Part shown: one piece after another, positions 4,216 through 42,095 of the stretch | Layout: the number at the start of each line of letters is the position of its first letter | Position numbering within the stretch: the stretch's first letter is position 1 | Translations under genes and position numbers: made by a program | The notes under the pieces: generated by a model | What the model was told of the DNA's origin: nothing | The model's database searches: none | Seen by the model: only the letters and a program-made list of their open reading frames with translations | Source: Paraprevotella xylaniphila YIT 11841 | Lineage (GTDB): Bacteria > Bacteroidota > Bacteroidia > Bacteroidales > Bacteroidaceae | DNA length: 63,385 nt | Reading direction: 5' to 3' | Assembly (NCBI RefSeq): GCF_000205165.1 | Contig: NZ_GL883836.1 | Span: forward strand, 68,381-131,765

Positions 4216-4284
4216 ATGTAACAGGATGCTATGTGAAATGTAATATCCGGGCATTTGTTACAAAATAGCAAAAATCCGTTACGC
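4216..4284 (+). promoter_or_regulatory. Phased ATGTWACAT-like operator sites before the 621-aa gene
   Basis: GTTACGC (4278) and GTTACAA (4257) are 21 bp apart and are centred about 35 and 56 bp upstream of the -7 box at 4315. A further ATGTAACAG at 4216 is centred 95 bp upstream. The 35/56/95 spacing matches the sites at four other promoters in the locus. Binding by the HTCS is inferred. Confidence 0.6.
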
Positions 4285-4314
4285 AGGAATAAACAGGAAT
4301 GGTTTGTTTCTGCG

Positions 4315-4322
4315 TAATTTTG
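4315..4322 (+). promoter_or_regulatory. Bacteroidota -7 box for the 621-aa gene
   Basis: TAATTTTG fits TAnnTTTG, with the start codon about 50 bp downstream. Confidence 0.6.
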
Positions 4323-4371
4323 TATCCGTATTGAGAATCTTTATTATGTTAAACTAAAATTTTATGGAGAA

Positions 4372-6237
4372 ATGTTACGAAAAAATTTGCTTTTGGCTTT
4401 CTTGGGCTTGACCGCCGGTACGGGGCTGTGTGCCCAAGGAGAGAAGAGTCCCGTGTCGTTGCAGTACGACGTGAACGGGGTTGCCAACGTGTCCCTTGAA
4501 GACTTGGTGTTTGACGGGGAAGGTACATGGAATCCCGAGACAGGTTTGCTTACGACCACCGCAGGCGGTTGGACACTTACGTTGTATTTGGATAATGAAG
4601 ATTTTTCCAATGTCGGTTATATCAATGTGGCCACAGACGAGAGTACCGACAAGGGGTATGCTTGTCTTGTCAACGATGTGCAGGTAATCGCTCCCGACGG
4701 AAAAGGGGCTGGCGGTGGTTGGTATAGTTCGTGGAGGAGTGCCAATTATGCGGCACAATGGAGTGGGGATACGGAAAATCCGAAAAGGACGTACCAACAG
4801 CTTTGTCCCACGGCTGCCCGTTACGTGTTTAATGGAAAGGCAGACCAAGGTGGTGTGGGTGCCATGGTCATCCAGTCCATTACGGTGGTGAAGAATCTGT
4901 TGAAGGCTTATCCCGGAAATGAAACAAGCCTGAATGCCTTGCCGAGGCTCAAGAACGACGGAAACTTCAACTTTACGGAGGAGGAGGCGAACGGTACTTG
5001 GAACATGGGAGTGGTTACGGACATATTCTATGGCGCGTCTTCCAGTGTGCAAGGATGGCCCTCTTATTGTGACCTGACGGGTTACGACGAACTGCGGGTG
5101 TACTTGCCAAAGGATAACAATGTGGGGGTACGTTGCTGGTTTTGCACGGCAGAACATAATGGCGACAACTCGAGCAATGACAACCTGTATGTCCCTATTG
5201 TGAAGCAGAACGATGACGGTAGGGATTATGCATCCGTGGACTTGGCTGAGGTGAGAGCTGAATGTGGGGGAAAGGCACACCTCATCGGAATGAAGACGGA
5301 AGTCGGAGGTTCGACGGTAGTCAATGACATTATCGCTGTGGATTACAGCAAAACCGAGGTGGATTATGTGCTGAACGGCTCGGGCGAATATACGGAAGGC
5401 ATGAAAGCTGCCATGGCAGACACGAAGGCCACGGTGATAGATGCCACCGGGTTGTCCAATGCCGTGCCGATGGCTTTAGTTTCCGTTAACCCGAACTGCC
5501 TCTTCCTCGTGTCTGACGCTACGAAACTCTCCAACGAGAAGAACGTGGTGGTGAAAGGTGAAGACGGCACGTACACTTGTGCCAACTTGGCATTGGAGGG
5601 CGGATACGCTTTCCGTACGCCCTATGCCTTCACTGCGACATCTGCCAGTGTGAAGAAGACGATGCCCGCTTCTGGTTTCGCAACCTTCGTGTCTCCTTTC
5701 GAGGTGTCCGTGGCTGACGGTTGCAAGGCATTCAATTTGACCGGTGTGGACAATAACGACATGGTGGTGGGCGAAGAAACAGCCACGTTGGCAGCCAATG
5801 CACCCGCATTGTTGTCCGGCAACGGTGAATATGGTTTCACGGCGACAGGCGTGGAGGTGACCGCTACGCCCCAGTCCCTTGTGAACGGCATCCTGACCGC
5901 TTCGTATGCAGACGGCGCGATGGCTCCCAAGGGCAGCTATGTGCTCCAAACCCAGGCAGAAGGCACTGCCTTTTATAAGGTGCAGGAGGACGGCAAGCAG
6001 CGCGTCACTCCTTTCACGGCATACCTTTCGTTGCCGGAGGCTGCGGGCGTGAACGTGCGTTCGATAGGCATAGGCTTCTCCGAGGACGGGACGACCGGAA
6101 TCTCTGCCGTAGCGGACGGAATGGTTGGCACAGCAGCCGTTTACGACCTGCAAGGCCGCAAGATGGAAAGCCTGGCCAAAGGCATCAATGTCGTGAAATA
6201 CTCGGACGGCAGCGTGAAAAAAGTAATCATAAAATAA
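4372..6237 (+). CDS. Secreted protein of unknown function with T9SS-like tail; possible glycan-binding protein
   Basis: 621 aa. The signal peptide ends in TGLCAQ. Residues about 25-185 and 190-330 look like two beta-sandwich modules (rich in Gly, Trp and Asn; GGWTLTLYLDNEDF, DLTGYDELRVYLPKDN). Residues about 425-585 hold a module (SGFATFVSPFEVSV, ANAPALLSGNGEYGF) of a kind I associate with Prevotella-type secreted proteins. The C terminus (VYDLQGRK, then YSDGSVKKVIIK) resembles a T9SS sorting domain. No catalytic motif is evident. It sits directly after the HTCS with its own promoter and the operator array, so it is probably co-induced with the enzymes. A role as surface xylan-binding protein, perhaps standing in for the missing SusD, is inference. 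GGAGA just before ATG 4372 supports the start. Translation is certain; function is not. Confidence 0.8.
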   Translation: MLRKNLLLAFLGLTAGTGLCAQGEKSPVSLQYDVNGVANVSLEDLVFDGEGTWNPETGLLTTTAGGWTLTLYLDNEDFSNVGYINVATDESTDKGYACLVNDVQVIAPDGKGAGGGWYSSWRSANYAAQWSGDTENPKRTYQQLCPTAARYVFNGKADQGGVGAMVIQSITVVKNLLKAYPGNETSLNALPRLKNDGNFNFTEEEANGTWNMGVVTDIFYGASSSVQGWPSYCDLTGYDELRVYLPKDNNVGVRCWFCTAEHNGDNSSNDNLYVPIVKQNDDGRDYASVDLAEVRAECGGKAHLIGMKTEVGGSTVVNDIIAVDYSKTEVDYVLNGSGEYTEGMKAAMADTKATVIDATGLSNAVPMALVSVNPNCLFLVSDATKLSNEKNVVVKGEDGTYTCANLALEGGYAFRTPYAFTATSASVKKTMPASGFATFVSPFEVSVADGCKAFNLTGVDNNDMVVGEETATLAANAPALLSGNGEYGFTATGVEVTATPQSLVNGILTASYADGAMAPKGSYVLQTQAEGTAFYKVQEDGKQRVTPFTAYLSLPEAAGVNVRSIGIGFSEDGTTGISAVADGMVGTAAVYDLQGRKMESLAKGINVVKYSDGSVKKVIIK

Positions 6238-6263
6238 GTATAACCTTATAAAACAGAAGAACG

Positions 6264-6425
6264 ATGAAAAAAGAATATCAGTCTCCCGTGATGGAGGTGA
6301 CGGAGTTGGAAACAAAAGAAATGGTGTTGCAAGCTTCTGATGGTTGTCCCGGAGTATCCGATTCTCCTTCCGACACGGGAATGGGCTCAGAGGCTAACAA
6401 GAACATTTGGGACAGCCTTTGGTGA
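6264..6425 (+). CDS. Small 53-aa peptide of unknown function
   Basis: ATG at 6264 opens a 53-residue frame that starts MKKEYQSPVMEVTELE and ends in NIWDSLW. It lies 26 bp after the 621-aa gene and before a strong terminator at 6478, so the two genes form one transcript. It has no signal peptide or membrane segment, one Cys (DGCPG), an acidic first half and a Ser/Asp/Gly-rich second half. Short proteins starting MKK-Y-xP-xxEV-x-E are common in Bacteroidales after surface-protein genes, but I know of no function. The short length limits certainty; the position between gene and terminator supports it being real. Confidence 0.65.
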   Translation: MKKEYQSPVMEVTELETKEMVLQASDGCPGVSDSPSDTGMGSEANKNIWDSLW

Positions 6426-6477
6426 TGGATATCAGCACAAGTCTTTTCATATAATGTTAGTTAGATTTAGAATGCGG

Positions 6478-6512
6478 AGTGCGCTGGGAAGTGATTCCCG
6501 GCGCACTTTTTT
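6478..6512 (+). terminator. Intrinsic terminator after the 53-aa peptide gene
   Basis: A 13-bp stem (AGTGCGCTGGGAA / TTCCCGGCGCACT, one G-U pair) with a GTGA loop is followed by six T. It separates the 621-aa/peptide unit from the GH115 operon. Confidence 0.85.
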
Positions 6513-6540
6513 CCCGTTTATGGGATAAAAAAGCGCTTTT

Positions 6541-6568
6541 GTTACTTTATCAAAAAATAATGTTACAT
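6541..6568 (+). promoter_or_regulatory. Phased operator sites before the first GH115 operon
   Basis: GTTACTT (6541) and GTTACAT (6562, within TGTTACATAGGC) are 21 bp apart and centred 55 and 34 bp upstream of the -7 box, the same geometry as at the other locus promoters. Confidence 0.65.
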
Positions 6569-6597
6569 AGGCGAAATTAAGCAATGCCTTTTTCGTG

Positions 6598-6605
6598 TAA
6601 CTTTG
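6598..6605 (+). promoter_or_regulatory. -7 box of the first GH115 operon
   Basis: TAACTTTG fits TAnnTTTG; ATG 6629 is 24 bp further on. It follows directly after a terminator, so it must start the enzyme operon. Confidence 0.7.
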
Positions 6606-6628
6606 CGAGAAACAATAAAAGGTGAACC

Positions 6629-9595
6629 ATGAAAAGTAACTTCTTGAAAATATGGGTTTGTACTTTCTTGAAAATATGGGTTTGTACTTTCTTCTTTGTG
6701 GAAGGGATAGTGAGTGCATGGGGGGCAGGCCATGTGGCCTTCTCGCCATTGCGCGGTGCTTTTTGTCTTGCCGAGCACGGGCGTGCCGCTACCATCCATG
6801 TGGATACGGCAGATTATAAAGGTGTGTATCTTGCCGCCCTAAATTTGGGGACGGACATCGGAAAAGTGACCGGAACGAAAGCCGATGTCTCTACGGCTTT
6901 GCCCATGGGGCAGGGAACTGTGATAGCCGGGACGCTCGGCCGGAACCGACGGATAGACGAATGGGTGAAACAGGGGAAAATTGACGTGTCTGCCATCGAA
7001 GGGAAATGGGAGAGCTTCCTGGTTCAAACGGTGGAGGGGAACCTCGTGATTGCGGGGAGTGATAAGCGTGGTACAATCTTTGGCATATATGACCTTTCGG
7101 AAAAGATAGGTGTTTCGCCGTGGCACTATTTTGCCGACGTTCCAGTACAGCGGCACGAAGTATTGTTTGTGAATCCGGGGCGGTATGTACAGGGTTCACC
7201 GAAAGTGAAATACCGTGGTATTTTCCTGAACGACGAATGGCCGAGCCTTGGCGGTTGGGCATCCACGAAGTTCGGTGGGTTCAACAGCCGCTTTTATGCC
7301 CATGTGTTCGAACTGTTGCTCCGGTTGAAAGCCAACTACATGTGGCCGGCCATGTGGGCCAGTTCGTTTTATGAGGATGACCCGGCGAACGGACAGTTGG
7401 CAGACGATATGGGCATCGTGATGGGCACTTCCCATCATGAGCCGATGATGCGTCCGCATAAGGATTATACCAAGCGGCGGAAAGAAGTAGGGCCTTGGGA
7501 TTACGCCACTAATAAAGAAGGCATTGATTCTTTCTTCGTCGAAGGGGCGGAACGGAGCCGTAAGTACGAAAGTATCGTGACCATCGGAATGCGCGGTGAT
7601 GGGGATGTGGCCATGGGAGGCGGCACGGATGAGGAGAACATGGCTGTGTTGTCGGATGTGATTAAAGGACAACGTGAAATTCTCGGACGTGTACATGGGA
7701 AAGACCCTGCCGGAATACCGCAACTTTGGGCGGTGTTTACGGAGGTACAACGGTATTATGACAAAGGTTTCAAGGTGCCTGATGACGTGATGCTGCTTTT
7801 CTGTGATAACAACTGGGGATATATCCGCAGGGTAGGACCGTGGCGGGAACAGCGGCGTAAAGGAGGCATGGGGCTGTATTATCATATTGACATGAACGGC
7901 GGACCGTGGAATGACCGATGGATTAACACTACGACCATCCCTAAGTTGCGCGAACAGTTCAATTTGGCTTACCAATCGGGCATAGACGACTTATGGATTG
8001 TGAATGTGGGAGACCTGAAGCCAAAGGAATTGCCTATTGATTTTATTATGCGTTATGCTTGGAATCCAGATGCCATACAAGCGGATGAAACGGATGATTA
8101 CCTGAGGGGGTGGGCACGGCAGAATTTCAGCGGGGCGCATGCGGATGCCATTGCCGGCATTGTGTCCCGTTATTCCCAATATAACCTGTGGCGGAAACCC
8201 GAAGTGCAGTCCACCGATATATTCAGCGTCGTAAATCACCGTGAAGCCGACCGTGTGACGGAGTTATGGCGTGCATTGGTACATGATGCGGATTCTGTAG
8301 GACAACTTATGCCTCAGGCATACAAAGACGCTTATTACCAGTTGGTGCTTTATCCGGCCAAAGCTTCGGCCGGAGTGGCAGAAATCTATTTAGCTGCGGC
8401 AAAGAACCAACTTTATGCGCGGCAAGGACGTGTGACGGCAAACGATTATGCGCGGCGGGTGGAGGATTTGTATATGGCGGATACGGCCATGACCGCCTAT
8501 TATAATAAGGTGTTGGCCGGAGGAAAATGGGAGAAGATGATGAGCGATATTCATTTGGGATATACCCAATGGTCGATGCCTAAAAAAGATTCCGTTCCGC
8601 AGGTGGTACGTGTGGAGCCTTTGTCGAAGCCCGTGATGGGCGTGGCCGTGGAAGGAAGCGAGGCGGCATCGCCGGAAGGAGATTTGGAACTCCCGGTTTT
8701 TGATAATTTTGAGAACCGTAAGTATTACATCGACATCTTCAATCGGGGGACGAGGGCGTTCGATTTCAAGGTCAAGGCCGGCGAGCCATGGATGGACGTG
8801 AGCCTTAGGAAAGGGACAGTGGAAACAGAAACCCGTCTTTGGGTCGGTATAGATTGGACGAAAGTAAAGGTCGGAAAGACGGAAGGCATGCTTTATATTT
8901 GTCGGGGAAGGGAGCGTGTGCCGGTGAAACTCCGTGTGGTAAAAGCTGAGAGGCCCGTTCAGGTAGAGGGGCACTGGTTCGGAAATGCTTGCGGAAATGA
9001 GTTCTCCGTACCTGCATGGCAGTTCAACGCTTGTTGGCCCGGACGATATGCAAAGTGGACTTTCCTGCCCGGTTTGGGCCGGGGTAAGGGCTGCATGGGA
9101 CTGACACCGGTCACGGCACCTTCGGTTGAGGCGTTCCAGGATGCTCCATCTCTGGAATATCAGGTTTATTTTCCGAATACGGGGATGCAGACAGTTTGTC
9201 TCGGTATCCTTCCCACGCAGGATGTGGCACCCGAACGGGGTTTGCGGTTGGCTTTTGGTTTAGACAATGGAGCCGTTCGCACGTTGGATGCCCGTCAGGG
9301 ATTCAAGGATGAGTTCCGGGAATATACTCCGGAGAACTTGCGGAAGTCACCGAATCTCAAACCGCTTCCTCCTCGTAACCGGACGTTGAAGCTCATCAAC
9401 GGGAATGGATTCTGCCGCAACGAAGTGTTCGACAACCTGCGTTGGCTGACGGCAGAATTCAAGGTGGACCAACCGGGATTGCATACGTTCAAGGTTTATA
9501 TGGTAGATCCGGAAATTGTTTTGGAGCAGTTGGTGTTCAATCCCGACAATACGCATCCGAGCTATTTCGGTGCACCACCGGTCAGGCATCAGTGA
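6629..9595 (+). CDS. GH115 alpha-glucuronidase
   Basis: 988 aa. GH115 enzymes release (4-O-methyl-)glucuronic acid from xylan, including internal residues. The family blocks are clear: KYRGIFLNDEWPSLGGW near 192-208, RLKANYMWPAMW, GTSHHEPM, MRGDGD, FCDNNWGYIRR and LWIVNVGDLKPKELP, followed by a C-terminal beta domain (about 700-988), the usual length for the family. The N terminus is odd: the signal peptide contains an exact tandem copy LKIWVCTF-LKIWVCTF from a 24-bp duplication. A start at 6629 fits the promoter 24 bp upstream. It is the first gene of the long enzyme operon and has a paralogue at 28111. Exported, probably periplasmic, since no T9SS-like tail is present. Confidence 0.95.
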   Translation: MKSNFLKIWVCTFLKIWVCTFFFVEGIVSAWGAGHVAFSPLRGAFCLAEHGRAATIHVDTADYKGVYLAALNLGTDIGKVTGTKADVSTALPMGQGTVIAGTLGRNRRIDEWVKQGKIDVSAIEGKWESFLVQTVEGNLVIAGSDKRGTIFGIYDLSEKIGVSPWHYFADVPVQRHEVLFVNPGRYVQGSPKVKYRGIFLNDEWPSLGGWASTKFGGFNSRFYAHVFELLLRLKANYMWPAMWASSFYEDDPANGQLADDMGIVMGTSHHEPMMRPHKDYTKRRKEVGPWDYATNKEGIDSFFVEGAERSRKYESIVTIGMRGDGDVAMGGGTDEENMAVLSDVIKGQREILGRVHGKDPAGIPQLWAVFTEVQRYYDKGFKVPDDVMLLFCDNNWGYIRRVGPWREQRRKGGMGLYYHIDMNGGPWNDRWINTTTIPKLREQFNLAYQSGIDDLWIVNVGDLKPKELPIDFIMRYAWNPDAIQADETDDYLRGWARQNFSGAHADAIAGIVSRYSQYNLWRKPEVQSTDIFSVVNHREADRVTELWRALVHDADSVGQLMPQAYKDAYYQLVLYPAKASAGVAEIYLAAAKNQLYARQGRVTANDYARRVEDLYMADTAMTAYYNKVLAGGKWEKMMSDIHLGYTQWSMPKKDSVPQVVRVEPLSKPVMGVAVEGSEAASPEGDLELPVFDNFENRKYYIDIFNRGTRAFDFKVKAGEPWMDVSLRKGTVETETRLWVGIDWTKVKVGKTEGMLYICRGRERVPVKLRVVKAERPVQVEGHWFGNACGNEFSVPAWQFNACWPGRYAKWTFLPGLGRGKGCMGLTPVTAPSVEAFQDAPSLEYQVYFPNTGMQTVCLGILPTQDVAPERGLRLAFGLDNGAVRTLDARQGFKDEFREYTPENLRKSPNLKPLPPRNRTLKLINGNGFCRNEVFDNLRWLTAEFKVDQPGLHTFKVYMVDPEIVLEQLVFNPDNTHPSYFGAPPVRHQ
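6641..6693 (+). repeat. 24-bp exact tandem duplication in the GH115 signal peptide
   Basis: Unit 6641-6664 is repeated exactly at 6665-6688, with five bases of a third copy. It keeps frame and doubles eight residues (LKIWVCTF) of the hydrophobic signal-peptide core. Confidence 0.95.
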
Positions 9596-9654
9596 GAGCG
9601 GAAGCGGTGGAACGTATGGTGTTTTGGAAATTTAATTGGTATTCATTAAAATAA

Positions 9655-10830
<1,176 letters not shown>

Positions 10831-10901
10831 GGGTTAGGACGGAACTGATAGGATGAGATTATAAAACGTAAGTAAGGACATGAGTTAAAGAAGTTATACA
10901 C

Positions 10902-11987: not shown

Positions 11988-12002
11988 TCTTTATACGATG
12001 AT

Positions 12003-13373: not shown

Positions 13374-13383
13374 AATAAAAGGT

Positions 13384-14745: not shown

Positions 14746-14774
14746 TGGTTTAATGTCTTCATTATAATAGGAAA

Positions 14775-16415: not shown

Positions 16416-16429
16416 AAATCGCGATTAAG

Positions 16430-16463
16430 CTCGGCAGAGGAAAGCTTGCTTGCCTCTGCCGAG
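16430..16463 (+). other. Perfect hairpin inside the enzyme operon
   Basis: CTCGGCAGAGG (16430-16440) pairs exactly with CCTCTGCCGAG (16453-16463) around a 12-nt loop. No T run follows, so it is not a typical terminator; it may stabilise or process the mRNA between GH43 and the CE6-like gene. Confidence 0.6.
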
Positions 16464-16526
16464 TGGGAGCGATTTATGCAAAAAGTACGTGGGATTGAAG
16501 AATAAAATGGCAGAAAGGGAAACTGA

Positions 16527-17387
<861 letters not shown>

Positions 17388-17401
17388 AAACCTGAATCTA
17401 T

Positions 17402-19741: not shown

Positions 19742-19763
19742 AGGCGAAGACTTTTTATTTGTA

Positions 19764-19771: not shown

Positions 19772-19806
19772 TAAGAGGTTAGGAAATATTGAAAAAATCG
19801 AGTACG

Positions 19807-27636: not shown

Positions 27637-27673
27637 AACAAGAGTGTCAGGGCTTGTCCTGCAAGTAAAATGC

Positions 27674-27709
27674 AAAACCGCTGGAGGAGGAACTCTTCCA
27701 GCGGTTTTT
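27674..27709 (+). terminator. Intrinsic terminator after the GH127-type gene
   Basis: AAAACCGCTGGA (27674-27685) pairs with TCCAGCGGTTTT (27697-27708) around an 11-nt loop, followed by T. It closes the first enzyme block. Confidence 0.88.
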
Positions 27710-28020
27710 GATACATAGCCGGTTGTTTTTCCAGCTGTTTGTGTTTCCATGATAACAATCTTCCTTCCTTAAACAATACCAACACCTAAGAACCAATCAT
27801 TAACCTAATTTCCAATTATGAAAAACCATCCTGTGCAATCTTTACCTTGAGGCAAAACCACCTGAAAAACCAACATTAACCTAATCATTATATTATGAAA
27901 CCTATTTTGCTTTGCCTTTATCCTTATAGTGCAAAGATAAGGTTATATTTCCTTTTTCATTTTTGAATAAGTAGCATATATTTTGTTTTATGAAACGTGA
28001 TGGAATTTTTTTTGGTAAAT
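27710..28020. other. Gap with two susC-like leader remnants
   Basis: Two similar blocks each have an AACCAAnCATTAACCTAAT-like stretch followed by ATGAAA (ATG at 27818 and 27895). This is the 5'-leader pattern I associate with susC genes in Bacteroidales, but the frames stop after 10 and 23 codons. A minus-strand TATCTTTG (27932-27939) has no gene behind it. The rest is AT-rich with no other feature. Possibly a scar where transporter genes were lost. Confidence 0.45.
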
Positions 28021-28067
28021 GAAACATAGGAGAATAAATATGTTACATAGGCAAAAATGGGTTACAT
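28021..28067 (+). promoter_or_regulatory. Phased operator sites before the second GH115 operon
   Basis: GAAACAT (28021), ATGTTACAT (28040-28048) and GTTACAT (28061) repeat at 21 and 19 bp and are centred 56, 35 and 16 bp upstream of the -7 box. The central copy is the clearest match to the palindromic core. Confidence 0.7.
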
Positions 28068-28078
28068 GCAGAATGCCG

Positions 28079-28086
28079 TATCTTTG
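28079..28086 (+). promoter_or_regulatory. -7 box of the second GH115 operon
   Basis: TATCTTTG fits TAnnTTTG. It lies inside the longest open frame, so translation must begin downstream, at 28111 or 28120. Confidence 0.7.
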
Positions 28087-28110
28087 CGTGTAAAGAACAA
28101 GATAGTATAT

Positions 28111-30717: not shown

Positions 30718-30746
30718 ATGGAATAACAATTATAGATAAAATAAAA

Positions 30747-32633: not shown

Positions 32634-32666
32634 ATCATTATAATTAAAAATCAAACAATTACTTTT

Positions 32667-35600
32667 ATGAAACAATTTTATTTGAAATGCAAACGGGCGT
32701 TCTTGGCGGGCGTTTCGTTTGTCTTGATGGTTGGGGCAGGCTTGGTGGAAGCCAAGGCCGATGCACCCTTGCGACGGCCTATCTCGCCGGAGCGGCCCAT
32801 GTTGTTGGTGCATATCGACACGTGGAACTATCCCGACCCCGAGCGTATCATCGAGATGGTACCGGAAGACATTCTTCCTTACGTGGTGTTCAATATATCC
32901 TTGTCGGCTTCCGACAACGTCTGCGCGGACGGTTATGCCGTGGCCGGTTCTTGGCTGAAGGCATGTGCACAGAAGCGTGCGTGGGCCATGGTGCAATGTG
33001 CCAGTGGAGGCCATAGCCGTTTTTCCGATCATGACCTTTCTGTATACGAGGATTATTTCCGCCAATATCCCAACTTCCTCGGTTGGAACTTCGCCGAGCA
33101 GTTTTGGGGATTCGGTGAAGACGGGACTCCTTCTTTCTTGGAGCGTCTTTCGTTGTTCGGCGACATCTTGAAGATTTGCCATCGCTATGGCGGCTATTTG
33201 GTGGTGAGCTTCACGCAGGCCTACTATTCGGCCGACATGTTGCCCATTGCCTATATGAAACGAAATCCGGAAGTGAACCGTTTGTTGACGGAACATCCCG
33301 AACACTTTATCTGTTGTGAGAAATACACGATGCAACATGGGTTCTATGAAATAGAGAGTAATTGCCTTGGAGCTTTCTTAGGAGGTTATGCCGGGAATTA
33401 TGGCATCCGTTTCGATGATTGCGGATGGTCGCCCGATGATGGTAATCCGGCAACGGAAAACGATGGGGACTTGTATCCTTTCGTGAAAGCGGCAGGTGCA
33501 ATTCCTATCATGGAGCACGTGATGCTGACGGGGCAGACGGTCATCGACGGCCCTGAATTGATTTGGACGGATGTGTCCCGTGAAGTGAGTACTTCTGTGA
33601 CCCCCGATGGTTATACCCGCCGTAATTGGGATTGGTTCCCGCAGTTTGTCAATATCCAGATGGACGAGTTCCGTAAGATTCTGGACGGTACGGTACGCAT
33701 CCTTACCCGTGAAGAAGTCATCGACCGGACGAAAATCTGTCTGCAAAATGATGTGAACGACGGGACTTTTGACAGTTACCTGACTCCGGCCACTCTGTTT
33801 GACGGGCTGTACCGTCCGGATTGCGACCGTGACCGTATGGACGGTAATTCATGGTTGGAGAACAAATGGTGGATGAAAACTTCTGGTCGCTACCCTACGA
33901 TACCGCAGGTATATGATTTGTTGGACGATACGGCTAAGAAACTTCAAGTGGTGAAGGTTTCGGAATATGATACTCGTTGGCCGGACATAGCTGCCAAGGT
34001 GGAAGAACTCAACCGACTTTTCCCACAGGAATACACAGGTGACATTTATGCAGCCCATGCGGAAAATACTTGGATGACCTACAACCCCTATCAATATGAG
34101 GACCAAACGACGAACGGAGTGCGTACGCGTTATATTTCCAAACGTCGTGCTTCAGGAGTCATTCCTTTCTTGTATAATACGGCAGACAGCATCTCTTTGG
34201 ACTTTTCGCCATACGCCATGGCTGTGATGAAAGAATATCCGGATAGTGTGGCGCTCTACATGAGCAATTACCGCCTGAGCGATGATAACAATCTGGTAGA
34301 AGCTGAAAACGTGGAGGACACGGTACGCATCTATGGTGCCACGGAGGAACCAGTTGTGAAGTGGTATGACCGTGCCGACCATCGTGCCAGCGAAGTGAAA
34401 CAGACATGGGAAGACGGTGTGCTGACATTGGTAGTAGGCCATAATGGTCCGGTGGAACTGAGCATCGAGTGTAAGGGAAAAGCCACCGGACGTCTGACGG
34501 AATGGACACCGGCACGGGTAGAAGTACCCGAGCGTCCGTCCGTATATACCGGCACGTTGCAGTATGAAGCCGAATTTTTCGATTACAAGAATATCGGGGC
34601 TTGCCATACTAACGGTTATTATAATGGCTATCCGGGCTACCAAGGCCAAGGGTTCGTGGAAATGGGCACGAACCGTTCGGCTTCCATCCGTGACACGGTA
34701 AGAGTGCTTCGGAATGGAACTTATACCATAAGCGTCCGTTATCAGGTTCCGAATGGTAGTGCACGTATGTATTTGATTGTAAATGGAAAACGAAAATCTC
34801 TGACGATGCGTGCCACCAATGGTGTTTGGGCAGAGACATCTGTCGAGGCAGAGTTGGAGGCCGGGGAGAACGAAGTGGAATTGAAGTTTGTTTCAACGCC
34901 TGTAAACGTATTGGTGGATTGTATCAAGATAAATCGTGCTAATGCTTATGTTTACGATTTTGAAGATGACAAACCGGGCACGTCTGCTACAGACCCGGCG
35001 GCTGAAATGATGACCCTGATGGGAGGCGAAGCCGGCGTGGTCGCCATCGAAGACAATCAGGCATTGCATGCCTATGCTGCCGGTACGGACGGAATGGGGC
35101 AGGCCTTGTTGGATTTGTTCCCACGTGATGCCGTGGATTATAGCGTGTCATGGCACCAGTTGGAAGGCGATGCAGGCATGTTGCTCCGTGGCGGTTATCT
35201 GTTCCGCGTGCAAGGTGGTAAAGTATCGCTCGTTGTGATGGAAGAAGACGAAGACGGGACTTTGCGTGTGGGCAAAACTTTAGCCGAGGGAGACAAGGCC
35301 GAGGGGATGGCATACTACCGTGCCACGCTGCTTGATGGGAAATTATACTTTGACGGTTCTGTAGACGGGGTACAATGGCAGAATATGCTGTCAGCGGAGG
35401 ATGCCACGTTCTCATGCGGTGAAACACGTCTTTGTTGGGAAGCAGCCATGACGGTAGACGACATCCGTTTCCATAATACCGGGCTTACGATGTCACAGAC
35501 GGATTTGGAGGACATAAACATGACTTATGGTGGAACGAATGCGGTCATCCGCAGTTTGGAAATCAGCGGAACGGATTTGTTGGGTGATGTGAAGATTTCT

Positions 35601-36692
35601 TTGGCAGGCAATGCCTTTGGGCTTTCGCTCGACTCCTTGGGTGAATATACCGGCGCACTGGTTGTTGAGTCCAACCGCTTGACCAATGAGCAAGGTGCCG
35701 TGCGTGTATTCGTCCGTCTGAAACCGGAGATGGCTGTGGATGACTACGAGGATGTGATGACCATCGCTACTTCTTATATGGAAGAACGAAAGGTGAACCT
35801 GAAAGGGAGCGTGACCCCTGCCAATTATGCCACGTATTATGATTTCGAGGATGATGCCGTTTCTTCCGGGGCTTCCAACCCACCGGCAGAGGGGATTACC
35901 CGTGGCGTGGGCAACCTTTGTACGGCAGGCGTGTCGAACTATACAGATTCGGAGAACCGTACGAGCAAGATGTTACGGGTCTACACGGCACCGAGTGCGA
36001 ACGGCACCGGAGTGTTGGATTTGGAGCGGTTTACACGCAAAAGTACGGATTACAGCGTGACGTGGCGGCAGGTCGTGACTTCATCTGGCGATTACAAGAA
36101 CGGAGTGGTTCTTCGCGGTGATACGCTCACGATAGGGAACGCCAACCAAGGTTATACTCTGGGTATCATGGCCGGTTATTATATGAATGTGTACAACCAC
36201 GGTACGGTTACCGATTTCCGCATTTACAAGTCCACGTCTTCCAAGCAATTGAACATGTTCAACAGCGCGAGCGTATCCTTGCAGGCGGCTTTGGGCAAAA
36301 GTATTTGGTACCGTGCTTCGGTTTCGGGTTCTTCCAAGGTCACTTTGAAAATAGAGTACTCTACCGACGGGGAAACCTGGCATCTGGGGACTTCCACCAC
36401 GGATGAAGGTGGTGAATTCCAACAGGGAGCCACACAATATGTATGGGGCTTGGCCGCATCCCAAGGTAATTTCCTCATAGATGACATATCGTTCGAGGGA
36501 ATTACGTATGACGAGGGTGTGGAGAACGGAATTTACTCGGCCGAGGAAACTACGGCAACGGTGGAGCGCGAAGAGTTCTTCGACTTGTCTGGCCGTAGGA
36601 TACTTCCGGGCGATAGCATGACAGGAGTAATCATTCGCCGCAGTTACCTGTCGGATGGCACAGTCAAGGTGGATAAGATATTGAAACGATGA
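32667..36692 (+). CDS. GH98 endo-glycanase (probable endo-xylanase), multidomain with T9SS-like tail
   Basis: 1341 aa with a signal peptide ending VEAKAD. GH98 catalytic domain about 35-345 (RPMLLVHIDTWNYPDPERII, WAMVQCASGGHSR, GWNFAEQFWGF, GIRFDDCGW) and GH98 C-terminal domain to about 610. A CBM6/35-like domain is at about 628-757, then two concanavalin-like units starting YVYDFEDD (about 759) and TYYDFEDD (about 1054), separated by a beta domain. The tail has FFDLSGRRILPG and YLSDGTVKVDKIL. GH98 was first known for blood-group cleavage, but a Bacteroides ovatus GH98 in a complex-xylan locus is an endo-xylanase for heavily substituted xylan. Here it is the main candidate for surface backbone cutting. 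Confidence 0.92.
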   Translation: MKQFYLKCKRAFLAGVSFVLMVGAGLVEAKADAPLRRPISPERPMLLVHIDTWNYPDPERIIEMVPEDILPYVVFNISLSASDNVCADGYAVAGSWLKACAQKRAWAMVQCASGGHSRFSDHDLSVYEDYFRQYPNFLGWNFAEQFWGFGEDGTPSFLERLSLFGDILKICHRYGGYLVVSFTQAYYSADMLPIAYMKRNPEVNRLLTEHPEHFICCEKYTMQHGFYEIESNCLGAFLGGYAGNYGIRFDDCGWSPDDGNPATENDGDLYPFVKAAGAIPIMEHVMLTGQTVIDGPELIWTDVSREVSTSVTPDGYTRRNWDWFPQFVNIQMDEFRKILDGTVRILTREEVIDRTKICLQNDVNDGTFDSYLTPATLFDGLYRPDCDRDRMDGNSWLENKWWMKTSGRYPTIPQVYDLLDDTAKKLQVVKVSEYDTRWPDIAAKVEELNRLFPQEYTGDIYAAHAENTWMTYNPYQYEDQTTNGVRTRYISKRRASGVIPFLYNTADSISLDFSPYAMAVMKEYPDSVALYMSNYRLSDDNNLVEAENVEDTVRIYGATEEPVVKWYDRADHRASEVKQTWEDGVLTLVVGHNGPVELSIECKGKATGRLTEWTPARVEVPERPSVYTGTLQYEAEFFDYKNIGACHTNGYYNGYPGYQGQGFVEMGTNRSASIRDTVRVLRNGTYTISVRYQVPNGSARMYLIVNGKRKSLTMRATNGVWAETSVEAELEAGENEVELKFVSTPVNVLVDCIKINRANAYVYDFEDDKPGTSATDPAAEMMTLMGGEAGVVAIEDNQALHAYAAGTDGMGQALLDLFPRDAVDYSVSWHQLEGDAGMLLRGGYLFRVQGGKVSLVVMEEDEDGTLRVGKTLAEGDKAEGMAYYRATLLDGKLYFDGSVDGVQWQNMLSAEDATFSCGETRLCWEAAMTVDDIRFHNTGLTMSQTDLEDINMTYGGTNAVIRSLEISGTDLLGDVKISLAGNAFGLSLDSLGEYTGALVVESNRLTNEQGAVRVFVRLKPEMAVDDYEDVMTIATSYMEERKVNLKGSVTPANYATYYDFEDDAVSSGASNPPAEGITRGVGNLCTAGVSNYTDSENRTSKMLRVYTAPSANGTGVLDLERFTRKSTDYSVTWRQVVTSSGDYKNGVVLRGDTLTIGNANQGYTLGIMAGYYMNVYNHGTVTDFRIYKSTSSKQLNMFNSASVSLQAALGKSIWYRASVSGSSKVTLKIEYSTDGETWHLGTSTTDEGGEFQQGATQYVWGLAASQGNFLIDDISFEGITYDEGVENGIYSAEETTATVEREEFFDLSGRRILPGDSMTGVIIRRSYLSDGTVKVDKILKR

Positions 36693-36697
36693 ATTTT

Positions 36698-36747
36698 TCT
36701 GGAAAGAAACGGTACTAAACAGAATGTTTAGCCGTTTTCTTTCCAGA
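36698..36747 (+). other. Long hairpin between GH98 and GH43 genes
   Basis: TCTGGAAAGAAACGG (36698-36712) pairs with CCGTTTTCTTTCCAGA (36732-36747) with one bulged base, and the inside folds again (CTAAAC-AGAAT-GTTTAG). No T run follows. It may protect the upstream mRNA or reduce read-through into GH43. Confidence 0.7.
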
Positions 36748-36767
36748 TATTAAACAAGATAAAATCA

Positions 36768-38885
36768 ATGGAAAAAAAGAAAATGATTTTGGGAAGAGGC
36801 CATTGGGTGGCATTGTGGTGTGCTGCCGCATGCTGTTCTTTGACCGTAGGTGTGGATGCGTTCGGGCAACCGGATGCACAGGAGTATGTGTTTCATGGGG
36901 CGGGAAACCCTTATTTGCCGTTGTGGGAACATTTGCCCGATGGTGAGCCGCGCGTGTTTGAAGATCCGGACAATCCCGGGAAATACCGCGCTTACATCAT
37001 TGGTTCCCACGATTTGCGGATGAACAGTTATTGCGGGCCGGACATCCGGATGTGGTCGGCACCGGTAGAGGATTTGTCCAGTTGGCGTGACGAAGGCCCT
37101 ATCTTTACTTATCCCATTGAAGGACAGTGGGACGTGATGTATGCGCCTGACTTGGTGGAAGTACGCCGCCGGGATGGAAAGAAAGAATACTACCTGTATC
37201 CGCACAGCCGTGGGCGTAACCGGGAAGCGATGGTGACTAAGAGCGACCGTCCCGACGGGCCTTTCAAACCTATAAATTTGAATGCCGACGGCACCAAGAC
37301 TTTACCGGGCAGCATCTTGGGTTTCGACCCGTCTATTTATGTGGAGCAAATCACCGACCCGAAAGACCCCGACTACGAAATCGGCTTTCGTGCATACGGT
37401 TATTGGGGCTTCCAACGTTCGTCGGCAGCACAGCTTGACCCAAATACGATGTATTCCGTGCGGCCGGGTACGGAGGTGATTCCGTATTTCATGCCTGCCG
37501 GTACTCCGCAGGGAGGTGTCCGTGATCCGGAAGGTACTGAATATCCTTGCCTTTTTGAAGGGCAGGATCCCAAGGCTTTCAACTTCTTCGAGGCTTCTTC
37601 CATTCGTAAGGTGGGAAACAAATATGTGACGATATATAGCGGATATTCCGGCCCTGATTACGGCATAGGAAATTCCAATTCCACTTTGCGTTATGCTTAT
37701 GGGGATAGCCCGTTGGGACCTTGGAAGAGCGGTGGGGTCTTGGTGGATTCCCGTGCTCCGGTGCTGAACGAAGACGGTTCACGTTTGCAGACCACCAATG
37801 CCGGGCACAATACGCATGGGAGTATTGAGCAAATTAACGGACAATGGTACGTGTTCTACCACCGTCCGCCGCGTGGATTCGGTTTTGCGCGTCAGGCCAT
37901 GGTAGCCCCCATTCAGGTGGAATGGGATGAGAAGCCGGTAGCCAAGGGAGGCAAAGTCTCCATCCGGGCTTACGACCCGTATGCCAAGAACCATGTGTGG
38001 ACGGCCAAGGACAAACAAGGTAACGAATACAAAGGGGCGGAAGTCACGTCGGAAGGTTTCCACATTTTCGGGCTTGACCCTTACCAATACTATTCTGCCG
38101 GTATCGCCTGTTACTTGTCGGATATACGTCTTCAGCAAGATGCTTGGGACATTTGGGACAACCATGCCCCGATTGCCGGTGTGAAAAACGGAAATATCAT
38201 CGGATATAAATATTTTGGTTTCGGAGGTTTGAAAAAGGACCAGTTGGGTTTGAAAGCCTTTGAGGGGACGAAGAAAGGAAACCAGACGGCTTTCAATCTT
38301 TTCCTGACCCCAAGAACGTCCAAAGCTTTCAAAGTAAACGTATGGATGGATGGTCCTTGGGACAACGCTACGTGGAAAGGCAAGAAGATAGGAGAAATCC
38401 AGGTACCAGCCGGTTCGGCGCAGGAAGTCACACAGTTTACTGTGGATGTCTCGGCCCATGTGGACGGACTGGGTCGGAAGCATGCTATTTATTTGGTGGC
38501 AGAAGGAGGCAGTGGAGAGGAACTTTTCGACTTGACAGGGTTGGGATTCAGTTCGGTCGGGAAGAAGATAGCCCGTCCGGTCGTACCTTCTGTCAGCATA
38601 TCGGTGGACGGGAAGGCTATTGAATTGCCTAAGACTCCGGTACGTTCCACCAATGCCAATGGCATAACCGGCTACGGGACGTATGAAGTGGTATACGTGC
38701 TTCCTTCCGAGACTGCCCGTTTGCCTAAGGTGTCGGCATCTTCCGATAATAAGGACGTGAAAGTAGAAGTCAAGCAGGCTCGTCCGGATGCAGAGACTGC
38801 TGTGGTGACGTTCGACTATCAGGGACTGGTCAAGACCTACAAGGTGGTATTCTCCCGTTCTTTTGTGGTAATGGGGAGTAAATAA
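36768..38885 (+). CDS. GH43-like glycosidase with C-terminal beta-sandwich
   Basis: 705 aa. Signal peptide region MILGRGHWVALWCAAACCSLTVGVDAFGQ. The propeller (about 40-400) has the likely catalytic Asp in RVFEDPDN, Asp in LGFDPSIYV and Glu in FFEASSIR, plus NSTLRYAYGDSPLGPWK and GHNTHGSIEQINGQWYVFYHR, all typical of GH43. Residues about 400-560 resemble a CBM-like domain (FHIFGLDPYQYYSAGIACYL). A last beta domain (about 590-700) follows. It is a distant GH43 branch with unusual length; specificity is unknown. Last gene of the GH115-CE20-GH98 operon. Confidence 0.85.
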   Translation: MEKKKMILGRGHWVALWCAAACCSLTVGVDAFGQPDAQEYVFHGAGNPYLPLWEHLPDGEPRVFEDPDNPGKYRAYIIGSHDLRMNSYCGPDIRMWSAPVEDLSSWRDEGPIFTYPIEGQWDVMYAPDLVEVRRRDGKKEYYLYPHSRGRNREAMVTKSDRPDGPFKPINLNADGTKTLPGSILGFDPSIYVEQITDPKDPDYEIGFRAYGYWGFQRSSAAQLDPNTMYSVRPGTEVIPYFMPAGTPQGGVRDPEGTEYPCLFEGQDPKAFNFFEASSIRKVGNKYVTIYSGYSGPDYGIGNSNSTLRYAYGDSPLGPWKSGGVLVDSRAPVLNEDGSRLQTTNAGHNTHGSIEQINGQWYVFYHRPPRGFGFARQAMVAPIQVEWDEKPVAKGGKVSIRAYDPYAKNHVWTAKDKQGNEYKGAEVTSEGFHIFGLDPYQYYSAGIACYLSDIRLQQDAWDIWDNHAPIAGVKNGNIIGYKYFGFGGLKKDQLGLKAFEGTKKGNQTAFNLFLTPRTSKAFKVNVWMDGPWDNATWKGKKIGEIQVPAGSAQEVTQFTVDVSAHVDGLGRKHAIYLVAEGGSGEELFDLTGLGFSSVGKKIARPVVPSVSISVDGKAIELPKTPVRSTNANGITGYGTYEVVYVLPSETARLPKVSASSDNKDVKVEVKQARPDAETAVVTFDYQGLVKTYKVVFSRSFVVMGSK

Positions 38886-38925
38886 GAAACTTGTTTCCAG
38901 ATACTGTTTCCGGTTTTTGGGTTGT

Positions 38926-38964
38926 AAAAATAACGGGTGCGTTACAAACGCACCCGTTATTTTT
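38926..38964. terminator. Bidirectional terminator between convergent genes
   Basis: An exact 18-bp inverted repeat (arms start AAAAATAACGGGTGCG) around ACA, with T runs on both strands. It lies between the stop of GH43 (plus) and the stop of GH30-GH43 (minus). Confidence 0.93.
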
Positions 38965-38981
38965 GCATCTGCATTCCTTTT

Positions 38982-41882
38982 TTAATGTTCGGAGAGTTTC
39001 TTGTCGGTTTTCACGCTTCCGTCACTGTAATACGTCTTACGGATATACATGCCTGTGGCGGGTTGTTCTGTAAGACGCATACCGTTGGGGTGGTAATATT
39101 CATACCGTACGGGAGTTCTGTCTTCCATTTCGGTATTTGTGATGGCATCGGAACCTTTCCCGGCAAACTGCCATGTGTCGAACTTCACTTCGCCCCGTGT
39201 TTCCGTGAAAAGGAAATACACGTCATGCGATCCGGTAATAGGTGTGGGACAGTCGACGGATACTTCTGTGGCCTCCGGTGTGGAGAAGTCGAGGGTGACC
39301 ACGGGTTCGGCTTCTATGTCGTTTAGACGGATTTCCAACGTGCCTTCCCCTTGCAGGTTTGCCGTGAACTTTTTGATGCCCTCTGTGCCGAACATGACAC
39401 CTTTTACCATGGTCCAACCTCCGGATTGTGGGATAGTGATACGGGTATTGCCTGTTTTCTCGTAGCTTTCGGCACTCACTCCGGCTGCCGTGCACAAGTT
39501 TTCCGCTTGTTGGAGGATGAACGGGTCTACACGTTTGGCCGTGAGTTGCATAACGCCGGTCGGAGAAGCCGTCACGGCATTGATGCGTTGCGAGCGTTCC
39601 ACTACGGGTAATCTGTTCATGGCTATGCTACGGTAACCTCCGTTGATGGCCATTTGTTGTTCCAATCCTTGCGTGTGGTAAAGAAGGTAATAAGCATTAC
39701 TGAATTTTTGCAGGTGTGAATGGTTGTTACCGTACGGGTAGCCGAATGTGCCGGGGTTGGCGAAGTATTCTCCTTTGTAGGTCCAACTGTCCGGGGCAAG
39801 GGGCGTGTCGGTCGTCATGTAACATATACTGCATGCCGAAGGAGCTTCAGAGATACCGCCGTATGAAGGCCAGTTCGTACGTTCGCGCCAACTGGTACAA
39901 TAGGAATAGACCAGTTTTCCGCCCATCACGTTCAGTTCGTTGGCTTCGAAATGATAAGGCGCAGGAATCGGCATGATGTCACTGTCAAGCGAAATCATGT
40001 CCTTACCGAGGCGTACGATACGGGCATTGCCCGGCATGAGTTCCGTTCCTTCCGCGTTCGGGTTTCCGCCGCCGAAGGCCAACCACCCCGTACCGTCGTT
40101 GTCGATGACGACACCCGGGTCGAAAGGTGTACTGCAAAGGCCGAGTCCGGGTGTGCTGCCGGAAATGAGGTTTTTGCCGAGCGGGTCGGTCCATGGCCCC
40201 AGAGGAGAAGTGGAGGTAATGACGCCTACGCCTCCTCCGCTATTGGAGAAATATAGATAGAAATGGGTTTTCCCGTCGGCTTCTTCACGGGAGACGATTG
40301 AAGGTGCCCACGAAGCGTTCAGCCATTGCCCGCAGACGGTCGTCATATCTATGGTGCCGTGGTAAGTCCAGTTGACCAAATCCTCCGTAGACATCATGAC
40401 CAAGGAACGGATCTTTCCGTAAGTGTTGGAGGTCAGGCCTCCTGTCGCGTCGAATTCCTGTTGGTCGTTCGTTCCGTACACATAGAGGCGCCCTTCATAT
40501 TCGACGGATGTCGGGTCGGCACAGAAACGGTAGGGGTTGAGCGGGTTCACCTCGGTTGTTTTCTTGTAGGCTTCCATGACGGTAGGTTCACTCGGTTCGG
40601 GTGTCTCTGCTTCCGTCCGGATAAATTGCAGGGTATAGAAAGCGTTTCCGAGTAGGTCGATTTCCGGTGAGGCCGTTCCCGCATATTGTGTGCTTACGTC
40701 TTGCACGAAGCGGTTGCGCGTGGCGTTCGTCAGAACGGCGTATACCTGCCGGCTTTCAAACGGGAGGTTTGCTTTCAACTTTACTGGTTCGGAAGAGCGG
40801 TTGAGGACGAACAGACTGAGGGTGTCGCCGTTCTCACTGACGTATGCCGAACCGTTGACCGGAGTTTTTCCTTTGTCGGAGAATGAGGATTTGATGCGCG
40901 TCATTCCGGTTGCATATCGGGCATAATGCCCTAGCACGTAGGCGAAAGTACTTAATTCCGAAGCGTTGCCACCTCCTTTCCCGTCGCCGAACATGTGGTT
41001 TATCATATTGTAGTAAACATAGGCACTGAAACCGGCCCGCATGCAACTGTCTATCTGTTCCTGGAAATCGCAGGCACTTTCCCATGTGCCCACCTTGTCT
41101 TCGTCGAAAATATATTCGGTCATCCACATGGGGCGCTTCGTCAGGCTGCGCACGTAGTCCACGTAGGTCATGTCGTTTACGCCGTAAATATGGTTGCCCC
41201 AGATGTCGATACTGTTGCGCATGGCAGCCGATTTTACCAATTCCTGGTTGTATTTGTGGCTGTCCCATCCGAAGCATTCCGGTGCCATGACCTTGCATTC
41301 CGGGGAAAGGTGTTGGTGCAGGGCGGTTACCATGCGGGTCATTTCGTCGACGGTGTAGAGGCAGCCTTCGTATCCTTCCGGGTCGTAGTCGCTTTCGTTT
41401 TGGACGGATAGGATGTCTATGGCCGCTCCCTGGTCTTCCATGAACTGGCGGTAGCGTTCCAACCATCGGGCGTATGAGTCGATGCTGTCCGTATTGATAT
41501 GTCCGTGGTTAGAGGATTCTCCCCACGTCTGTTCGGCACCGACCTTGAAACAGAAGGGAGGTGTCCACGGGCTGGCAAAAACGATGGCACCGTGTGCCTT
41601 GGCCCATTTGACAGCGTTCACGTAACTCTTCCAGTTACTTTCGTCGGGGTTGATACGGATACGCATGATGTTATAGCCCATTCCGTCCGGTCCCCACAAC
41701 CGGTCCACTTGTTCTTGGGTGTAGACGTCAGCCCATTGTCCGTTCATTCCGCAGCCTCCGAATCCGTCTATTTTTTGGTATCTCGTTTCGGAGTCGAGGT
41801 TTACGTTGGCCGTACGCTGTGCGCAAAGCGGTATGCATCCCGTGAGGGCCGTTGCATACAAGAGGGTAATCGTTCTTTTCAT
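38982..41882 (-). CDS. GH30-GH43-CBM6 fusion with T9SS-like tail
   Basis: 966 aa on the minus strand. Signal peptide (TITLLYATALTGCIPLCAQR). Residues about 25-425 are GH30 of the glucuronoxylanase type, with acid/base E163 in SVQNESDYD and nucleophile E256 in WMTEYIF. Residues about 440-790 are GH43: Asp in FCADPTSV, Asp in PFDPGVVID, Glu in ISEAPS. A CBM6 (about 795-925; QQAENLCTAAGVSAESYEK, GSHDVYFLFTE) and a tail with YHPNGMRLTEQP and YYSDGSVKTDKKL end it. One chain thus joins an endo-xylanase to a debranching enzyme. The T9SS-like tail suggests the surface. It is divergent from the GH2 operon and shares its operator array. Confidence 0.92.
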   Translation of the reverse strand: MKRTITLLYATALTGCIPLCAQRTANVNLDSETRYQKIDGFGGCGMNGQWADVYTQEQVDRLWGPDGMGYNIMRIRINPDESNWKSYVNAVKWAKAHGAIVFASPWTPPFCFKVGAEQTWGESSNHGHINTDSIDSYARWLERYRQFMEDQGAAIDILSVQNESDYDPEGYEGCLYTVDEMTRMVTALHQHLSPECKVMAPECFGWDSHKYNQELVKSAAMRNSIDIWGNHIYGVNDMTYVDYVRSLTKRPMWMTEYIFDEDKVGTWESACDFQEQIDSCMRAGFSAYVYYNMINHMFGDGKGGGNASELSTFAYVLGHYARYATGMTRIKSSFSDKGKTPVNGSAYVSENGDTLSLFVLNRSSEPVKLKANLPFESRQVYAVLTNATRNRFVQDVSTQYAGTASPEIDLLGNAFYTLQFIRTEAETPEPSEPTVMEAYKKTTEVNPLNPYRFCADPTSVEYEGRLYVYGTNDQQEFDATGGLTSNTYGKIRSLVMMSTEDLVNWTYHGTIDMTTVCGQWLNASWAPSIVSREEADGKTHFYLYFSNSGGGVGVITSTSPLGPWTDPLGKNLISGSTPGLGLCSTPFDPGVVIDNDGTGWLAFGGGNPNAEGTELMPGNARIVRLGKDMISLDSDIMPIPAPYHFEANELNVMGGKLVYSYCTSWRERTNWPSYGGISEAPSACSICYMTTDTPLAPDSWTYKGEYFANPGTFGYPYGNNHSHLQKFSNAYYLLYHTQGLEQQMAINGGYRSIAMNRLPVVERSQRINAVTASPTGVMQLTAKRVDPFILQQAENLCTAAGVSAESYEKTGNTRITIPQSGGWTMVKGVMFGTEGIKKFTANLQGEGTLEIRLNDIEAEPVVTLDFSTPEATEVSVDCPTPITGSHDVYFLFTETRGEVKFDTWQFAGKGSDAITNTEMEDRTPVRYEYYHPNGMRLTEQPATGMYIRKTYYSDGSVKTDKKLSEH

Positions 41883-41946
41883 GTGTTTTTGGTTTTAAAG
41901 TTTGCAGGGTAAGTCCCATGGTTCATCTGTTTTTCTTGATGACAAG

Positions 41947-41954
41947 CAAAGTTA
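41947..41954 (-). promoter_or_regulatory. -7 box of the GH30-GH43 gene
   Basis: On the minus strand TAACTTTG, 64 bp before the start. The sites in the shared gap are centred 55, 75, 96 and 137 bp upstream of it, in the same phase as at the plus-strand promoters. Confidence 0.65.
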
Positions 41955-42006
41955 CGTATTTTCAGCCTGTCGCATTTTCGCTCCAATAGCGGATACTTTC
42001 GTACAA

Positions 42007-42095
42007 GTAACATCCTTTTCTTTTGTATAACATATATTTTTGCGTATGTAACATAGACCTTGAAAAAACTTTTTCAGGGCAAAGATTGGTAACAT
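42007..42095. promoter_or_regulatory. Shared divergent operator array (four ATGTWACAT sites)
   Basis: GTAACAT at 42007, ATAACAT at 42027, GTAACAT at 42048 (within the palindrome ATGTAACAT) and GTAACAT at 42089. Steps are 20, 21 and 41 bp. From the GH2 -7 box the centres are 34, 75, 96 and 116 bp away; from the minus-strand box they are 55, 75, 96 and 137 bp away. Confidence 0.72.

Follow-up and report, generated by a model that had tools for sequence, protein, structure and literature searches.

A set of ATGTWACAT-like sites precedes several promoters of a large xylan-type PUL in Paraprevotella xylaniphila YIT 11841, which raises the question of what regulator reads these sites, by what rule they are laid out, and how far this rule reaches beyond the locus. 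The window analysed is the whole stretch of 63,385 bp (positions 68381–131765 of the contig); coordinates are given in window numbering unless labelled with a contig.

The regulator and the anatomy of its candidate operator

The HTCS gene (115..4209, plus strand) encodes a protein of 1364 aa, identified by Pfam and by seven orthologs at 59–77% identity, the 77% belonging to G001. The protein includes a Reg_prop and Y_Y_Y sensor, HisKA, HATPase_c, a receiver, and an AraC-type HTH_18 domain at residues 1262–1339 (Pfam). The surrounding PUL contains, in the window, two GH115 genes, several GH43 genes, GH95, GH2, GH127, GH98, and esterases, while its upstream part comprises an MFS transporter, GH10, GH43, GH67, two SusC, one SusD, and a 1196-aa gene with a sub-threshold CBM match. 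Among 18 genomes of the genus, the HTCS ortholog was present in the own genome (G000) and in seven others, and the best non-orthologous paralogue showed 38% identity, leaving a gap below the orthologs. The search for close relatives with the HTCS as a lone query was empty; the alignment of eight orthologs did retrieve relatives.

The operator unit is a directional direct repeat of approximately TGTWACA-N4-C-N-AAA with copies 21 bp apart, and the first T of a TAnnTTTG box lies 34 or 35 bp past the proximal core centre (all distances were measured from the core centre to this T). The composite operator and promoter of gene 4372 (4256..4324, plus strand) has cores at 4259 and 4280 and a box at 4315–4322; with further cores at 4220 and 4242, the distances are 35, 56, 73, and 95 bp. 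No Pfam family was assigned to the 621-aa product of this gene at E ≤ 0.001. The GH115 gene 6629 is preceded by a composite element at 6540..6608 (plus strand; cores 6543 and 6564, box 6598–6605) with cores 34 and 55 bp before the box, and the GH115 gene 28111 by one at 28018..28088 (plus strand; cores 28023 and 28044, box 28079–28086) with cores 35 and 56, and also 16, bp before the box. In the divergent gap 41883–42162, the cores are located 34, 75, 96, and 116 bp from the plus box (42125) and 55, 75, 96, and 137 bp from the minus box (41954). All core-to-box distances of the original prediction were thus reproduced by remeasurement. The regular phasing it described was also found, with 21 bp rather than about 20.5 bp as the commonest tandem spacing. 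One composite element it missed lies on the minus strand at 27929..27996 (cores 27994 and 27973, first T of the box at 27939), divergent from the operator of gene 28111 and facing a small RNA candidate.

The column analysis used 14 operators, with core and box as the sole selection criteria. Counted from the core centre, the distal copy has C at +8 and A at both +10 and +11; the proximal copy has a less pronounced C and an A-tract spanning +10 to +12. One A-tract per unit (A at +11 and −10) was observed in 13 of the 14 operators. In 46 composites, picked by a matrix trained at 34/35 with 33–36 allowed and the A-tract included, the box started at 34 in 38 and at 35 in 8, with A at −10 in 45/46 and A at +11 in 42/46. 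A symmetric site was rejected, the mirrored T before the distal core (−34 to −31) being present in just 17–20 of the 46 composites. The site had been described as near-palindromic; this holds for the core, and the whole unit is an asymmetric direct repeat with its A-tract one turn downstream. The idea that one regulator occupies a single DNA face at intervals of two turns was supported for one kind of regulator.

The units of the divergent array all point in one direction, and the array therefore belongs to the minus-strand GH43/CBM6 gene (38982–41882); the original prediction had measured its sites from both boxes. This four-repeat array (41946..42054, minus strand) has centres at 41988 (weak), 42009, 42029, and 42050, i.e., 34 (weak), 55, 75, and 96 bp from the box (first T 41954). 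The plus-strand GH2 gene 42163 has a single, weaker unit of its own (42079..42136; core 42091, box 42125–42132) with the core 34 bp before the box. This element was matched by the sequence-only model R1, described below, at E 3.4e-6, with an operator-matrix score of −7.5 and a total of 3.8.

Placement and distribution of the sites

The word ATGTWACAT at ≤1 mismatch occurred 15 times in the window against 12.2 expected (28 of 100 shuffles reached 15), and the bare 21-bp pair at ≤3 mismatches was found 7 times against 6.05 expected. The core-to-box distances fell into the phase windows in 13 of 19 cases in nine window gaps, and 0 of 2000 shuffles reached 13, a test that is partly circular because the phase windows were set from the numbers of the original prediction. 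The signal is the placement of the sites and not the abundance of the word. A held-out matrix was trained on 14 operators of seven other Paraprevotella genomes, and both strands of the own contig were scanned. It returned nine elements with scores of 23.1–51.5; the next place, the plus element before gene 42163, scored 3.8, and the best of 20 shuffles 9.2. One element each precedes the MFS/GH10/GH43/GH67 genes, the SusC/SusD operon, the 1196-aa gene, and gene 4372, and the remaining ones precede the two GH115 genes, the GH43 gene (two, overlapping), and the small RNA candidate. Eight of the nine have a box at 34/35; the remaining one consists of the outer pair in the divergent array. All seven sequence-model matches in the window at E < 1e-5 were situated in operator-bearing gaps (4372, 6629, 28111/small RNA, and 41883–42162). 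The gap before purL had been said to lack the pattern, in agreement with a match there of the box part of the model alone (51129–51160, E = 0.047).

In the eight ortholog loci, 62 intergenic TGTWACA pairs (≤1 mismatch in total per pair) were counted at 8–80 bp, of which 22 had a distance of exactly 21 bp, with 3 or fewer at every other distance; their coding DNA contained 18 pairs, one at 21 bp. No intergenic pair at ≤1 mismatch in total was found in two paralogue loci. Model R1 was built from 38 composites of other genomes. At E ≤ 1e-4, it gave 3–17 matches in 8/8 genomes with the HTCS ortholog and none in 10/10 without it, with 150 of 692–1980 first-look candidates scored per genome; the training set came from seven of the eight positive genomes, and the ten negative genomes are less complete on average and may form another clade. 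The HTCS encoded at 115, originally named as the likely regulator, is the best candidate by this co-occurrence. Counterparts of the 27929–27996 operator were present in G001, G007, G011, G013, and G016, as well as on contig C94 of G014.

The relatives scan covered 34 loci (L214–L247) of the 40 fetched with the ortholog alignment; L208–L213 were taken as contigs of G011, G012, G013, G007, G014, and G001 and left out, and L221 was taken as G016:C26 again and left out of the counts. An element scoring ≥20, most at 34 bp, was detected in 15 of the 22 loci with a 40–49% identical HTCS (other Bacteroidaceae/Prevotellaceae). Of the other seven, four had only weaker matches (<20) and three (L215, L226, and L234) none at the cut-off of 14. 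Among 11 loci with remoter or partial HTCS matches, 0/11 reached 20, L235 having 15.4.

The operator is not exclusive to the PUL contig. At E < 0.001, R1 found 19 places in the own genome, 10 on this contig (two of them the single-site element at window 42079 and the outer part of the array at window 42014) and nine elsewhere, on C61, C33, C63 (two), C75, C42, C65, and C87 (two). On C33, the site lies at the head of a GH97-esterase-GH43/CBM6-GH31 operon, and its counterpart in P. clara (G001) is on C40. The C61 and C75 sites precede NVEALA/beta-propeller or beta-propeller genes, C75 also adjoining another HTCS; the C42 site precedes an Sde182-like gene, and the genes that follow the C63 sites have no Pfam name. 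On C65, the match comprises the operator part only, and its nearest downstream gene is about 0.8 kb away. The two C87 matches are at the locus of the 38%-identical HTCS paralogue, with the same 21/34-bp layout and some A-boxes reading TGCGACA. In a pattern count, single cores ahead of a box at any of the 29 allowed spacings did not outnumber the reversed control (30 vs. 25), though 8 of the 30 fell at spacings 34/35 (about 2 expected). From the off-contig matches and this pattern count, the regulon is probably wider than the PUL, and other HTCS may control some of the sites. Because of the off-contig and paralogue matches and the spacing-wide count, sequence alone does not name the regulator of each single site.

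The HTCS gene itself seems to stand behind an invertible, phase-variable promoter. Inverted repeats of 30 bp flank 134 bp just upstream of the gene (C32:68177–68370), and an extra copy of the HTCS-proximal arm is located at the window start (1..29, minus strand), preceded by ten N. The other two arms are on the contig immediately before the window. Corresponding repeat pairs with differing letters were observed in P. clara (G001), G013, and G014, and two such cores in G007; none was found upstream of the HTCS in G012 or G016. The G013 segment aligned in the opposite orientation to G001 and G014 (32.5 vs. 19.0 and 25.5 vs. 13.0; shuffle maxima 23.5 and 17.5), and the box points to the HTCS in G013 and away from it in G001 and G014. 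Inverted repeats around a promoter box are thus found in both orientations among the relatives, as is characteristic of an invertible promoter. The orientation evidence for the own genome is mixed, since its segment aligned in the G001/G014 orientation (30.0, shuffle maximum 27.0; 20.5, maximum 19.0) and carries a box-like TAAATTTG pointing to the HTCS. Such a promoter would add population-level switching of the whole regulon. Positive autoregulation is also suggested, because a composite operator precedes the HTCS gene by 0.2–0.5 kb in G007, G013, G014, and G016; none was found before the gene in the own genome or in P. clara.

The small RNA candidate on the minus strand

The minus-strand operator at 27929–27996 has no long ORF of its own ahead. 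The stretch beyond it was recovered at E ≤ 4e-9 in G000, G001, G007, G011, G013, G014, and G016 and in none of the other 11 of the 18 genomes; these are seven of the eight ortholog-bearing genomes, the eighth being G012. In the window, the candidate small RNA comprises about 260 nt (27668..27928, minus strand; ends inferred), with seeds at 27876–27900 and 27793–27826 and a terminator-like hairpin at 27674–27708. The two segments fit the FopS R1' seed consensus, 13 and 3 of 2000 shuffles reaching their local scores. The sequence GAAATTAGGTTAATGATTGG was invariant across six aligned copies. Paralogous stretches of this kind occur elsewhere in the genus behind canonical-looking boxes, and another one has a hairpin right after the seed when the minus strand is read. 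Short units of similar appearance were also found at divergent operators of the same kind in rumen relatives (45–46% identical HTCS): of 11 minus-strand places, four (L224, L229, and L233 twice) are short and AT-rich with AGGTTA and then a hairpin, three run into ORFs of >480 codons, and four are ambiguous.

General pairing of the candidate with SusC start regions was not supported, the energies being about equal to those of random stretches, though more favourable than those of shuffled seeds. For 22 of 23 start regions, with starts guessed as the first ATG, the means were −9.2 for seed 1 (random −8.8, shuffled −8.0), −13.2 for seed 2 (random −14.6, shuffled −11.7), and −19.6 for the whole stretch (random −25.5). 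The complement TAACCTAAT before ATGAA occurred 60 times in the 18 genomes against 11 in the reversed control, and 16 of the 60 matches are the antisense of such small RNA stretches. The long genes among the own-genome matches, which are candidate silencing targets, encode a rhamnogalacturonan lyase (C13:67776), a GH2 enzyme (C81:57432), and a fasciclin-type protein of a SusC PUL (C20:56668).

Two readings of this stretch were weighed. With a chance only slightly short of even, the xylan-sensing HTCS would induce, by way of the operator class that also serves its enzyme genes, a divergently encoded small RNA that carries two FopS-type seeds and silences other PUL genes at their start regions. 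It is rather doubtful that the stretch contains no functional RNA and is a degenerate leader or DNA around the 3' end of the GH127 gene. This second reading is favoured by the Rfam search, which gave only sub-threshold, chance-like matches (the release may be without a FopS model), by terminator-like hairpins that are clear in just three of six copies (G000, G001, and G011) and weak or not found in G007, G013, and G016, and by G012, which has the HTCS ortholog yet no strong match (best E 0.0055). However, the stretch is kept in seven genomes along with its operator, 20 consecutive columns are invariant across the six aligned copies, no ORF is conserved among these copies, in which the short ORFs differ between species, and two segments fit the FopS seed. 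If the silencing RNA is real, the sensing of one glycan would be tied directly, at the molecular level, to the setting aside of others. The coupling of operator and small RNA would then make an old question testable in one locus, namely how Bacteroidota restrain genes for other glycans while sensing one.

Proposed mechanism and comparison with known systems

The elements are very probably operators of the AraC-type HTCS encoded at 115–4209, which would act as a head-to-tail activator. The periplasmic sensor would bind a xylan fragment, upon which the DNA-binding domains would be phosphorylated and line up head to tail on the DNA, usually as two monomers and in arrays as up to four. In the AraC family, each monomer contacts two successive major grooves; here, one helix-turn-helix of each monomer would read TGTWACA and the other the A-tract one turn further, with neighbouring monomers 21 bp (two turns) apart on the same DNA face. 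The proximal unit ends about 20 bp before the TAnnTTTG box, adjoining the position of the upstream promoter element, so that it would recruit RNA polymerase. The assignment rests on sequence, spacing, orientation, conservation, and co-occurrence with the regulator; that the HTCS binds, that it is phosphorylated, that xylan is its signal, and that it activates instead of repressing is what we infer.

That the phased words arose by chance in AT-rich intergenic DNA is barely credible: the bare word and the bare pair do occur at chance counts, but the 21-bp excess in the ortholog loci, the held-out matrix scan, and the phase shuffles argue against it, and the elements track the presence of the HTCS across the relatives' loci and the 18 genomes. 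An assignment of the sites to a Crp-like global sugar regulator is very improbable. The published palindrome of the latter, TATGTTnTAnAACATA, has similar half-sites, with ATGTT and AACAT in common with the core; at ≤3 mismatches, however, it gave 2 matches against 1.94 expected, and one palindrome does not explain tandem asymmetric units. Unlikely, though to a lesser degree, is the reading of some or all sites by another regulator with the same operator grammar, e.g., a paralogous HTCS. The C87 locus with its 21/34-bp architecture and TGCGACA boxes is consistent with it, as are the match near an HTCS on C75 and the proximal box of the small RNA promoter, which has the form [TC]GC[GT]AC in 6/6 aligned copies. 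Nevertheless, G004, G005, G006, G008, and G009, which carry other HTCS at E ≤ 1e-100 and no ortholog, had no R1 match at E ≤ 1e-4, and the two paralogue loci were without an intergenic TGTWACA pair at ≤1 mismatch in total.

As a kind, the structure of the operator assigned here to the HTCS is already known, since a 2013 study predicted the operators of 16 HTCS, described for Bacteroides thetaiotaomicron, to be direct repeats with a spacing of about 21 bp (Ravcheev et al., PMC3878776). The elements share with these operators the two-site direct repeat averaging 21 bp before PUL operons, and the same inference was drawn there for monomers on one face two turns apart. Here, too, the tandem sites form direct repeats spaced about 21 bp apart, and these are conserved before PUL operons in the genomes that carry the HTCS ortholog. 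Unlike in the accessible part of that study, the present case concerns another regulator and genus; the box obeys a 34/35-bp rule, an array can have up to four units, and one target is a divergent small RNA-like stretch. The rule (21 bp, then 34/35 bp, in one orientation) is sharp enough to predict the regulons of this HTCS, and such a prediction would span Paraprevotella and rumen Bacteroidaceae. A mutant of the PUL 43 HTCS of Bacteroides xylanisolvens no longer expressed that PUL, nor the unlinked GH67, GH10, GH2, and transporter genes (PMC4855328); the C33 operon would likewise be an unlinked target, and the available text of that paper, unlike the present case, describes no operator.

No HTCS operator at a small RNA gene and no operator for this xylan regulator was found in the open-licence literature, to the extent of the excerpts at hand, and PMC12596196 contains no occurrence of HTCS, direct repeat, or binding motif. 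The TTTCATA...AGGTTAA-type seed of the candidate resembles that of the FopS/GibS family, whose 14 described FopS RNAs are said, in the accessible part of the source, to use canonical promoters (PMC11697453). In contrast to that family as described there, the stretch has two seeds, lies inside a PUL, and stands behind an HTCS-type operator. Like the DonS-type RNAs in the sections available of PMC7366714, the candidate would be a short RNA divergent beside a PUL operon. Those RNAs are cis-antisense to susC homologs, whereas here the minus box at 27939 and the plus box at 28079 face outward in opposite directions. No overlap of the two transcripts would result, so a DonS-type antisense RNA was rejected. 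The arrangement of operator and small RNA would therefore be new among these systems, if the RNA is real.

Composite operators and sRNA candidates elsewhere in the genome

Composite operators of the same type, in which TGTWACA-core units repeated 21 bp apart are followed by a TAnnTTTG box, were also found on other contigs of P. xylaniphila YIT 11841. The copy at C33:278335-278406 heads an unlinked GH97-esterase-GH43/CBM6-GH31 operon and has a counterpart on P. clara contig C40. Others lie at C61:224260-224331, C63:40017-40083, C63:42124-42190, and C75:10165-10236, the last with a further HTCS gene some 5 kb away; the genes behind these composites encode NVEALA, beta-propeller, or unnamed products. 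At the C87 locus of a 38% identical HTCS paralogue, the 21/34-bp layout is retained and several core boxes read TGCGACA. The proximal box of the minus-strand promoter facing the sRNA candidate (window 27929-27996) has a similar form in the alignment of six genomes. Two more FopS/GibS-like sRNA candidates were detected outside the PUL, at C33:79731 and C23:62316, and both have counterparts within the genus; no Rfam match was found for the former (locus L151).

Segment preceding the HTCS gene

Just upstream of the window, before the HTCS gene, inverted repeats flank a 134-bp segment (C32:68177-68370), and the window start (1-29) holds a ten-N run and a further copy of the repeat arm. The segment occurs in either orientation across related genomes. 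In this respect the arm-flanked segment resembles an invertible promoter.

A short ORF of 54 codons, including the stop, was read at window 6264-6425, between the genes at 4372 and 6629 (GH115).

Receiver domain of the HTCS

The receiver domain of the window HTCS carries NHIP at residues ~1163-1167, whereas several orthologs have SHIP. The NHIP differs from the S/CHIP reported at this position for most HTCS (PMC11253607).
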